A stretch of DNA of 11,089 nucleotides, taken from NCBI GenBank assembly GCA_025351675.1, contig JANXVK010000079.1:1-11089 (forward strand). The letters run 5' to 3'. Positions 7,914 to 10,426 of the stretch are shown here, piece by piece. Positions within the stretch are counted from its first letter, which is position 1, and the number at the start of each line of letters is the position of its first letter. The notes beneath the pieces are model-generated. The model had not been told where the DNA came from. It saw only the letters and a list, made by a program, of their open reading frames with translations, and did not search any database. Source of the DNA: Rhizobacter sp. (lineage in GTDB: Bacteria; Pseudomonadota; Gammaproteobacteria; Burkholderiales; Burkholderiaceae_C). The translations under genes were made by a program, and so were the position numbers.

Positions 7914-8654
7914 TCACAGCCTCAGCGTTCGCCCGAGGAAGAGCACGGGCCCGGTCGGCCGATTCACCGGCGAGCCGCCTTCGGGTTCGAGCGTAAGTTC
8001 GAACAACTGCTTCTCGCCGACGGCGGGCAGCAGCGCTGCCGGAAGTTCGGTGGTGCGGGCTGCGGCGACCAGGCCCAACGAGGTGGGTCCGGCCGCGCCC
8101 TCGGCCTTGGTCCAGAACTGCAATGCCTTGCCGGCAGGCACGGGTGACATCGGGCCCACCGGGATCAGGCGCACACGGTCACCGCGGGTGACCTCGACGA
8201 CCCAGCCGGTCGAGTTGTCCTGCGGCGCTTGCAGCACCGCCAGGTAGCGCGCCGGCAGCTCGGCAGGCGGCACCAGCAGCTGCAGGCCCAGCACGGTGGC
8301 CAGAACGGCCGAGGCCGCCACGGCGCAACTGCCAATCCACTTCCAGCGCCGAAGCTGCTGCCAAACCGAATCGTTGGCCGCAAGCTCGGCCGCTCGGTGG
8401 CGAGCGACATGAACCACGGCCGCCGTCGGCGTCAGCGCCGATTCGATCACCGGCCACAGATCGGGATTCGGCACTTGCTGGGGCACGCGATCCGTCAGGT
8501 GCAACAAACAGTCCTGCCAAAAATAGACTTCAGCGAGCAGCGCCCGGTCGTTCGGCAGCTCGCGCTCGAAAGCTCCGCGGTCTGCTGCGCTCATGGTGCC
8601 GAGCACATACTCGCCAGCCGTCGCGCTGCGTTCCTGGCTGTCAACAAGCGTCAC
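7914..8654 (-). CDS. RskA-type anti-sigma factor (membrane-anchored)
   Basis: A 246-residue single-pass anti-sigma factor of the RskA family. The cytoplasmic N-terminus has the anti-sigma domain AGEYVLGTMSAADRGAFE (13-30) with YFWQDCLLHL (44-53); one membrane helix follows at about 106-128; the remainder (130-246) is the periplasmic RskA domain with QFWTKAEGAAGPTSLGLV (179-196) and LEPEGGSPVNRPTGPVLFLG (222-241). Such proteins hold their ECF sigma factor inactive until an envelope signal causes release, often through proteolysis. Start GTG at 8654 overlaps the sigma gene's stop codon as GTGA and has AAGGAG eight bases upstream; an upstream GTG is worse placed. Note that the anti-sigma domain has no zinc-binding HxxxCxxC motif. 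Its partner is the sigma factor directly upstream. Confidence 0.92.
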   Translation of the reverse strand: MTLVDSQERSATAGEYVLGTMSAADRGAFERELPNDRALLAEVYFWQDCLLHLTDRVPQQVPNPDLWPVIESALTPTAAVVHVARHRAAELAANDSVWQQLRRWKWIGSCAVAASAVLATVLGLQLLVPPAELPARYLAVLQAPQDNSTGWVVEVTRGDRVRLIPVGPMSPVPAGKALQFWTKAEGAAGPTSLGLVAAARTTELPAALLPAVGEKQLFELTLEPEGGSPVNRPTGPVLFLGRTLRL

Positions 8655-9241
8655 GACAGACACTCCTTCAGGGCGATCAGGCCGCGGCGGATCCACGACT
8701 TGACGGTGCCGACGGGCGTTGCGAGTCGCCGCGAAATCTGCTCGTGCGTGTAGCCTTCGACAAAGGCATAAACGACGCATTCCCGCTTGCGTTCGTCAAG
8801 CGCCTCCAGACAACGGTTCAGTGAATCGGCGTCGACCGACGGCGACGCGCTTGCCGAGTGGCTGCTGGCGTGCCGGTCGGCGTAAGCCTCGATGTCGTCA
8901 CCGACCGCTGTTTCGCGCCCGGCCCGACGCGCCGCATCGAGTGCACGGTGCCTCACAACGGTGTAGACCCAGCCGCGCGCAGATCCCAGCTCGCGCTGGT
9001 AGGTGGTGGCGCGTTGCCATATTTGCAGAAAAGCATCTTGCAGCACGTCGTGCGCCGCATCGCGATCCCGCACGATGCGCAGCGCCACGCCGAGCAACCA
9101 CCGCGATTCGCGGTCATACAGCGCGCGCAGTGCCAGACGCTCGCCGCGTGCACAGGCCTCGAGGGTCGACTCGTAATCAAAGGGATCGAGCGCGCCGGGG
9201 CCGGTGGTGGATCTCAAAGAAATTCTCCGTGTCCTGCGCAT
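8651..9241 (-). CDS. ECF-type RNA polymerase sigma factor (SigK-like)
   Basis: A 196-residue extracytoplasmic-function sigma factor. Region 2 (about 38-107) shows LRALYDRESRWLLGVALRIV, the core-binding HDVLQDAFLQIWQRA (64-78) and GWVYTVVRHRALDAARR (90-106); region 4 (about 140-194) shows LEALDERKRECVVYAFVEGY and the helix-turn-helix HEQISRRLATPVGTVKSWIRRG (written here only as its ends, 166-187). ATG 9241 is used; a TTG at 9217 with GGAGA seven bases upstream is a credible alternative that removes eight residues. The gene overlaps the RskA-type gene downstream by four bases. A GCATCC-N17-GTAGT motif lies upstream on this strand and the same motif drives toward the divergent DUF4394 gene, which suggests autoregulation. 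Confidence 0.94.
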   Translation of the reverse strand: MRRTRRISLRSTTGPGALDPFDYESTLEACARGERLALRALYDRESRWLLGVALRIVRDRDAAHDVLQDAFLQIWQRATTYQRELGSARGWVYTVVRHRALDAARRAGRETAVGDDIEAYADRHASSHSASASPSVDADSLNRCLEALDERKRECVVYAFVEGYTHEQISRRLATPVGTVKSWIRRGLIALKECLS

Positions 9242-9294
9242 TGCCCGCCGATGTGCCGATGGGGCGCGCGGTGGTTCGACGTGACCACTTCCGG

Positions 9295-9324
9295 ACTACG
9301 AAGCAGACCGGCCTTCGGATGCAG
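9295..9324 (-). promoter_or_regulatory. Candidate ECF promoter of the sigma/anti-sigma operon
   Basis: Read leftward: CTGCATCC (9324-9317), 17 bases, then GTAGT (9299-9295). The sigma ATG lies 53 bases further on, leaving a leader of about 45 bases. The same hexamer, spacing and pentamer occur on the opposite strand 31 bases away, pointing to the DUF4394 gene. Other GCATCC copies I found in the window lack GTAGT at this spacing. Confidence 0.6.
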
Positions 9325-9332
9325 GCTCAGGC

Positions 9333-9343
9333 GGAAAAATATT
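9333..9343. promoter_or_regulatory. A+T-rich patch between the two ECF -35 elements
   Basis: GAAAAATATTC sits in the 34 bases separating the two GCATCC elements, in otherwise very G+C-rich DNA. It lies just upstream of both -35 elements, so it could serve as a shared UP element for the RNA polymerase alpha subunit, or as an activator site. This role is inferred from position alone. Confidence 0.35.
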
Positions 9344-9354
9344 CTTGCGTTGCG

Positions 9355-9384
9355 CTGCATCCGGATGCGTCGGCGCCAGGTAGT
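9355..9384 (+). promoter_or_regulatory. Candidate ECF promoter of the DUF4394 gene
   Basis: CTGCATCC (9355-9362), 17 bases, then GTAGT (9380-9384), identical in core and spacing to the motif on the other strand upstream of the sigma gene. Transcription from here would give a leader of about 120 bases before the ATG at 9512, longer than for the sigma gene. The -35 hexamer is also half of the perfect palindrome GCATCCGGATGC (9357-9368). Confidence 0.6.
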
Positions 9385-9511
9385 GCTGCTGATGGGTTGA
9401 ATTGATGTCCGTGCCGCAACCTTGCTCAGGCATTGATTCAACCATCGACCCTCTCTTTTTGCACCCACCACCCGCCTCCTTGAACAAGAAGGCCACTCCA
9501 GGAGAAATAGC

Positions 9512-10426
9512 ATGATGAAACGTCTGTCTTCAATCGCTGCGGCGTGTCTTGTCACCGCCACCTTTGCCACGCCGGCGACCTCCCAGACCCGCACCGACTC
9601 CTGGGGTTCGTACTCCGGCGGCTCGTGCGCCAGCGGCTCCCCGGACAGCAGCAGCTATGACCGATCCAGGACGCTGCAGGTGGTCGGTCTGACCAGCGAC
9701 AACCGGCTCGTCTGCTTCAACGAGTACTCGCCGCAAGAGGCCCGCAACATCAACTTCGTGTCCAACCTGTCCGGCGGTGACACCTTCCTGATCGGGATCG
9801 ACTTCAGGGTCCAGAACGGCTTGCTGTACGGCGTTGGCAATGCCGGCGGTGTCTATGTGATCGACACGGCCAACGCGGTCGCAGAGCTGGTCAACCGCTT
9901 GAGTGTCGCGCTCGACGGGAGTGCGGCGTACGGGGTCGACTTCAACCCGGCCGCAGACCGCCTGCGCATCACCAGCAGCAAGGGGCAGAACCTGCGGCAC
10001 AACGTGAATGCGGGAGGAGTCACCGTTGTCGATGGTGCGCTCAACTACACCCCCGGCGTCACGGCACTGGGCATCGTCGGCTCGGCATACACCAACAACG
10101 ACCTCAACGCCAACACCGCGACCACGCTGTACGCGCTCGACTCGACACTCGACCAGATCGCGCTGCAATCGCCGCCGAACGCCGGCACCTTGGCTGCCAC
10201 CGGAAAACTCACTGTCGATGCCACCGAGGTGGCGGGGTTCGACATCTACAGCACGATTCGAGACGGCGTGACAGTCGAAGTGCAATCGCTGGCGTCGATC
10301 AAGGCAGCTGACGGCTCGACCAGCCTGTACAGCGTGAAGCTGCCGACCGGCAAAGCCACGTTGCGCGGCAGGTTCGGTGCCCAGAACAGCGTGACCGACA
10401 TCGCGATCCCGCTGAACCAGCTCTGA
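9512..10426 (+). CDS. Secreted DUF4394 domain protein
   Basis: A 304-residue exported protein. The signal peptide has KR at 3-4, a hydrophobic core at 8-19 and a likely signal-peptidase site after ATS (22-24). A short Ser/Gly-rich stretch (29-50) leads to a DUF4394 domain (about 55-304), with VVGLTSDNRLVCFNE, LIGIDFRVQNGLLYGVGNAG (93-112), GVDFNPAADRLRITSSKGQN (141-160), SAYTNND (191-197), TLYALDSTLDQIALQSPPN (205-223) and VAGFDIYS (240-247). The repeated strand pattern suggests a beta-propeller-like fold; function is unknown to me. Two cysteines (39 and 68) could form a disulfide. AGGAGA at 9500-9505 is a good ribosome site; ATG 9515 is equally possible. It is divergent from the ECF sigma gene and carries a matching promoter motif, so it is the likely output of that regulon. 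Confidence 0.9.
   Translation: MMKRLSSIAAACLVTATFATPATSQTRTDSWGSYSGGSCASGSPDSSSYDRSRTLQVVGLTSDNRLVCFNEYSPQEARNINFVSNLSGGDTFLIGIDFRVQNGLLYGVGNAGGVYVIDTANAVAELVNRLSVALDGSAAYGVDFNPAADRLRITSSKGQNLRHNVNAGGVTVVDGALNYTPGVTALGIVGSAYTNNDLNANTATTLYALDSTLDQIALQSPPNAGTLAATGKLTVDATEVAGFDIYSTIRDGVTVEVQSLASIKAADGSTSLYSVKLPTGKATLRGRFGAQNSVTDIAIPLNQL

Follow-up and report, generated by a model that had tools for sequence, protein, structure and literature searches.

In the window, by which we mean the whole stretch of 11,089 nucleotides analysed here, two elements of identical form, GCATCC-N17-GTAGT, lie on opposite strands and face outward, one leftward toward an ECF sigma factor gene and the other rightward toward a DUF4394 gene. 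Judged from sequence and conservation, the pair very probably comprises the autoregulatory promoter of an ECF sigma factor of the SigK/RskA type, set back to back with the promoter of a DUF4394 target gene.

The predicted promoter pair and its flanking genes

A sequence-only reading of this DNA had proposed GCATCC-N17-GTAGT on both strands, and both copies are exact, with CT directly 5' of each hexamer (Table 1). It had also judged the pair unlikely to arise by chance, and this was borne out: GCATCC-N15-19-GTAGT occurs at just these two places within the window, compared with a chance expectation of 0.01 per window (mean of 200 dinucleotide shuffles), and none of the 200 shuffles held two copies. 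From the positions of the –10 elements, transcription would be expected to start near 9288 leftward and near 9391 rightward. The predicted 5' leader of the DUF4394 gene contains an inverted repeat at 9395-9443, GGTTGAAT...ATTCAACC. A regulatory RNA in this leader was considered and rejected, its fold having a z of –1.7 with equal stability in 12 of 200 shuffles.

Table 1. Predicted promoters, candidate shared element and genes around the intergenic region
Feature	Positions	Strand	Details
Predicted sigma-operon promoter	9295..9322	-	–35 GCATCC 9322-9317, 17-base spacer, –10 GTAGT 9299-9295; weight-model score 26.5
Predicted DUF4394 promoter	9357..9384	+	–35 GCATCC 9357-9362, 17-base spacer, –10 GTAGT 9380-9384; weight-model score 24.1
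A/T-rich block AAAAATATTCTT, candidate shared UP element	9335..9346	.	A/T peak in training sites, A/T stretch in divergent loci
ECF sigma factor gene	8651..9241	-	PF04542 E 8.7e-16, PF08281 E 3.2e-14; start uncertain
RskA-like anti-sigma gene	7914..8675	-	PF10099 E 3.3e-23; overlaps sigma gene end; putative start
DUF4394 gene, 304 aa, candidate target of rightward promoter	9512..10426	+	PF14339 E 1.1e-70

Pfam matches agree with the flanking genes as the sequence-only reading had named them, i.e., an ECF sigma factor leftward with an RskA_C anti-sigma factor after it, and DUF4394 rightward. The sigma gene could start at ATG 9241 or at TTG 9217, the latter preceded by GGAG. Its product of 196 aa carries Sigma70_r2 (residues 41-109) and Sigma70_r4_2 (140-191) and no other sigma region, which is the architecture of an ECF factor. 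By sequence, its best solved relative is SigK (4nqw, E 1.2e-22), and Cys144 and Cys194 align with the cysteines of SigK; both are present in 79 of 81 aligned sigma rows, the others being L082, which is cut by a contig end, and L132, which is without both. Against the NCBIfam SigK model NF007228 the protein scored 129.3 bits, below the cut-off of 226, so that it is not SigK proper. An anti-sigma relative adjoins the sigma gene in 77 of the 80 loci among the matches listed; of the three exceptions, one is a locus truncated at its contig end. A sequence comparison of the anti-sigma factor with solved structures gave no significant relative; by eye, the start of the protein (ATAGEYVLGTM, GAFEREL) resembles the AS19-1 helix motifs quoted in the available part of PMC7406223. 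The Pfam matches, the SigK relative and the cysteines support kinship with the SigK/RskA type.

The DUF4394 protein had no match by sequence among solved structures. Its predicted model (mean pLDDT 78.8, from 12 sequences, with residues 1-52 mostly below 50) found largely beta-propellers as its best Foldseek matches, at TM below 0.5. The modelled fold is thus likely of the beta-propeller class, from which no function follows. Several DUF4394 genes elsewhere (L009, L032, L033, L064 and L159) carry the domain twice within a single reading frame.

Conservation of the motif and of the back-to-back layout

A position weight model was built from 27 sites, one per genus, at loci with 40-56% sigma identity and with the window excluded. 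Because these sites were selected for GCATCC-N16-18-GTA, with preference for GTAG and then for a spacer of 17, the letters of GCATCC and GTA are circular within the training set. The spacer, for which 16-18 was allowed with a mild preference for 17, was 17 bases in 26 of the 27 sites. Features that had not been preset were a T before the hexamer (0.84), an A after it (0.74), a G two bases ahead of GTA (0.71) and, at 11-19 bases upstream of the hexamer, a block rich in A/T (A/T 0.52 to 0.93). The refined motif reads tGCATCCA, 17 bases, gGGTAGTA-like, with this same block ahead of the –35. Apart from the pair itself (scores in Table 1), no place in the window exceeded 12.3; 200 first-order Markov windows reached 22.2 at most, with a 99th percentile of 16.9.

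A profile scan of genome contigs with an alignment of eight sigma factors yielded 406 confirmed candidates, 80 loci being among the matches listed. With a threshold of 14.6, which was fixed after seeing the weakest DUF3455 site, sense sites were present within 2 kb upstream of the sigma gene at 5 of 7 loci with at least 57% identity (untrained), 34 of 36 with 45-56%, 13 of 24 with 40-44% and 7 of 13 with less than 40%, the training sites coming from the two middle tiers. The antisense reading of the same regions gave 0/7, 5/36, 5/24 and 2/13 in the same order, and these matches are in part divergent promoters. At a stricter threshold of 18, the four tiers retained 2, 32, 12 and 4 loci. Away from sigma genes, 14.6 was reached in 7 of 1494 segments of 600 bases each, a control rate that has to be scaled by three since a segment is about a third of the length tested at sigma; the highest of the seven is the DUF4394 promoter of L101. 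The exact pattern TGCATCC-N17-GTAGT occurs 12 times across 11 genomes with the sigma factor and once across 10 genomes without it (no sigma match at E 1e-30), and the reversed pattern at none in the 21, counts to be read with the fact that 6 of the 11 sigma-bearing genomes were taken from a list of DUF4394 genomes and that several of the 12 sites were known beforehand. Ten of the 12 stand before a sigma operon, a DUF4394 gene or a DUF3455 gene. Two exact sites, G029:C23:136952-136980 and G081:C1:266151-266179, have no recognised member downstream.

Among the matches listed, DUF4394 is upstream of and divergent from the sigma gene at seven loci (L108, L114, L115, L116, L118, L126 and L133), all alphaproteobacterial, and each of the seven has a back-to-back –35 pair, GGATGC-N24-28-GCATCC. 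The gap between the –35 elements is thus 24-28 bases there, as against 34 in the window. On the sigma side of these pairs GTA follows at 17 bases in 6/7 and GTC in 1/7; on the DUF4394 side GTA follows at 16-18 bases in 3/7 and GTC at 18 in 4/7. The sequence-only reading had suggested that GCATCC-N17-GTAGT, if its interpretation was right, gives the recognition sequence directly, and had named conservation at orthologous loci as one check on it. The –35, the spacer and the position withstood this check, which lends support to the proposal of matched promoters for the sigma gene and a divergent target. The –10 is less fixed, with GTAGT on 0 of the 14 sides in these alphaproteobacterial pairs. 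Back-to-back GCATCC and GAATCC sites also occur at a more distant sigma locus (L017:1355 and 1393), with scores of 25.7 and 19.1.

The centres of the seven divergent pairs are rich in A/T, their best 12-base stretch holding 8 to 12 A/T. An A/T tract upstream of the –35 is present in the window and recurrent in both the training sites and the divergent loci. In the window, AAAAATATTCTT lies 11-22 bases upstream of the right –35 and 13-24 bases upstream of the left one, approximately at the A/T peak of the training sites, and is perhaps a common UP element of both promoters. The looser pattern GGATGC-N15-60-GCATCC gave 16 matches among the 80 listed loci, compared with 2.2 expected for uniform letters. 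Chance may account for six of these (L127 twice, L139, L142:8495, L145 and L128), in which an A/T tract is scant or absent; further matches with a tract are L098, L134 and L142:4867.

Among the 80 listed loci, DUF3455 is upstream on the same strand at 36 and DUF4394 is present in any position at 17, with both at none. A tree of 81 sigma factors, made by a quick method with SH-aLRT as its only support measure, places the window in a starred set of nine that is separate from the divergent loci of the alphaproteobacteria. Within this set DUF4394 is co-directional at L078, L079 and L080 and downstream at L083 and L085, L081 and L084 have DUF3455, and at L082 neither DUF4394 nor DUF3455 was found. 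The label 'divergent' needs four changes on the tree, at least two of them forced by starred branches. Given this placement and the forced changes, the window's mirror pair likely arose as an independent arrangement.

Further sites in the genome and competing explanations

The genome of the window is a 3.64 Mb draft, 81.7% complete and in 675 contigs. A genome scan with the bare pattern, which the sequence-only reading had suggested as a route to the regulon, recovered a site before a second DUF4394 gene. As a regulon finder it proved too weak, since GCATCC-N16-18-GTAGT occurs 7 times compared with 2 for the reversed control, and the weight model was used instead. Open frames were uninformative as to an intergenic position of the other sites, since every one of these, including the second DUF4394 site, is covered by a long frame. 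That site (G000:C178, L060:2979-3006) is GCATCC-N17-GTAGT with a score of 16.7, its first base 94 bases before the ATG, and the gene encodes a PEP-CTERM end. A further site, GCATCC-N17-GTAAA with a score of 18.0 (G000:C259, L173:1289-1316), precedes a DUF3455 gene, 101 bases from its ATG; by eye, this gene has a lipoprotein start and a terminator-like hairpin lies before the promoter-like site. Both genes are probably under the same sigma factor, as far as their upstream sequences indicate.

Across 22 genomes, each of the 11 DUF3455 genes found has, in the 600 bases upstream of the domain, a site that scores 14.6 or more; one of these sites has GCATCT and one GTTGT, and two of the 11 genes are in genomes without a close sigma factor. 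For DUF4394 genes in sigma-bearing genomes, 7 have a site (the window's own included) and 6 do not (G014, G081, G147, G061 and two of G410; one of these six, L035, offers 334 bases upstream only). In G031 an unlinked DUF4394 gene has a site, though the sigma operon there is of the DUF3455 type. DUF4394 is present in 10 of 11 sigma-bearing genomes, but this co-occurrence is overstated because 6 of the 11 were preselected for DUF4394; in the genomes chosen by sigma alone (G014, G015, G029, G031 and G038) it is present in 4 of 5, compared with 36 of 399 in the order.

The arrangement suggests the following mechanism. On release from its RskA-like membrane anti-sigma factor, the sigma factor would direct RNA polymerase to both GCATCC/GTAGT copies. 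From the leftward copy, the genes for sigma and anti-sigma factor would be transcribed, i.e., autoregulation, and from the rightward copy the DUF4394 gene, whose product is secreted. Lying between the two –35 elements, the A/T-rich block could serve as an UP element in both directions. The same sigma factor would probably also drive the second DUF4394 gene and the DUF3455 lipoprotein-like gene.

We weighed three other explanations of the pair. Chance similarity in a GC-rich intergenic region could draw on the five further occurrences of the bare pattern in the genome, one of which is the site before the second DUF4394 gene. Its probability is negligible, given the shuffled expectation, the 7/7 divergent pairs, the scores of both copies and the conservation upstream of the sigma genes of relatives. 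The mirror halves might alternatively be, instead of two promoters, the dyad operator of a dimeric transcription factor, and the window does hold the inverted repeat CTGCATCC / GGATGCAG, with the –35 pair kept in divergent loci. The distance between halves, however, varies from 24-28 in the seven alphaproteobacterial loci to 34 in the window, and single halves, with GTA 17 bases on, stand before co-directional or unlinked genes, so that an operator is very improbable.

That the elements are ECF promoters read mainly by another ECF sigma factor is also improbable, if somewhat less so. The genome encodes four further ECF relatives at E ≤ 1e-12, among them a paralogous sigma/RskA-like pair at G000:C249:1352-1888 (L194), whose sigma factor is 35% identical. 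G009 and G020 have DUF3455 sites (19.1 and 20.8), yet their sole sigma relative, at 155-156 bits, is of this paralog type, so that another sigma factor may read some sites; those two are either read by the paralog type or are relics. Upstream of the G020 paralog itself there is a weak candidate (12.4, spacer 16), which lies 287 bases from the first matched residue. Against this reading, the paralog has no upstream site of at least 14.6 in G000, G009 or G020, while strong sites stand at the operon of the window-type sigma factor in alpha-, beta- and gammaproteobacterial relatives. We therefore favour the adjacent sigma factor as the reader of both promoters.

As a more tentative extension, which we hold to be possible but on balance doubtful, the shared UP-like block would make the region a bidirectional unit that couples the output of sigma factor and target. 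The layout would then have arisen at least twice, in the alphaproteobacteria and in the lineage of the window, whose nearest DUF4394 loci are co-directional, and DUF4394 and DUF3455 proteins would be interchangeable extracytoplasmic products of one conserved pathway.

Relation to known ECF systems

The proposed mechanism is an ordinary one, ECF autoregulation with a divergent target, and as a reading of the sequence it is supported by conservation. What is new is the refinement of the motif, the A/T block that both promoters may share, and the connection of both DUF4394 and DUF3455 with a single regulator. The analysis supplies a candidate promoter sequence for SigK/RskA-like sigma factors of a branch that is widespread in proteobacteria, and by tying two uncharacterised families to one regulator it would make their function testable through that regulator. 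The sequence-only reading had likened GCATCC to CCATCC as the –35 of mycobacterial SigK. A SigK promoter with CCATCC was not found in the literature searched, and the available parts of PMC4821874 and PMC8103513 do not give a SigK motif. GCATCC occurs in two published ECF settings: in the available text of PMC6180224 it is a –10 of group ECF29, and in that of PMC5507510 it is one site of an RpoE/ChrR-type sigma factor whose consensus is TGATCC-N16-CGTA. ECF18 and ECF19 are absent from the accessible text of PMC3817407, which has its motifs in figures, and of PMC10880074; a promoter motif for the ECF18/ECF19-type group may already be in print elsewhere.

The literature searched held no mention of DUF4394, alone or with 'sigma factor', and no link of DUF4394 or DUF3455 to such a sigma factor. 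In the same literature, the publications that mention DUF3455 are fungal by title, apart from one bacterial study (PMC7725335). In the part of that study available, expression of two DUF3455 genes of Delftia acidovorans on soybean roots was 20-fold higher at day 7 compared with day 2; the words 'sigma factor' do not occur. At a Delftia locus among those listed, L110, a site stands before DUF3455 and sigma. By analogy with this rise on roots, the pathway may respond to root life.

Among described systems, the sigma factor is most readily compared with the SigK/RskA type (ECF18/ECF19), with which it shares the ECF architecture, the RskA_C anti-sigma factor downstream, both cysteines and SigK 4nqw as the closest solved relative. 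The equivalents of SigK Cys133 and Cys183 are present in 94% of ECF18 and 56% of ECF19, as given in the available part of PMC7509140, in which the targets are MPT70/MPT83, whereas the candidate targets here are DUF4394/DUF3455 proteins. RpoT/ecf18 of Pseudomonas belongs to group ECF18 and has its anti-sigma factor in the operon (PMC3597554, in the part available). Of the 15 Pseudomonas loci listed, 12 have GCATCC-N17-GTAG before a DUF3455-sigma-anti-sigma cluster; unlike the window, none of the 15 has DUF4394. Most ECF sigma factors autoregulate, a property used to derive 29 promoter motifs in 43 subgroups (PMC3817407, from the text accessible). The window resembles such autoregulated promoters in having –35 and –10 elements at a spacing conserved upstream of the sigma operon in relatives, and differs from them in general in that a single A/T-rich block is flanked by two promoters placed back to back.
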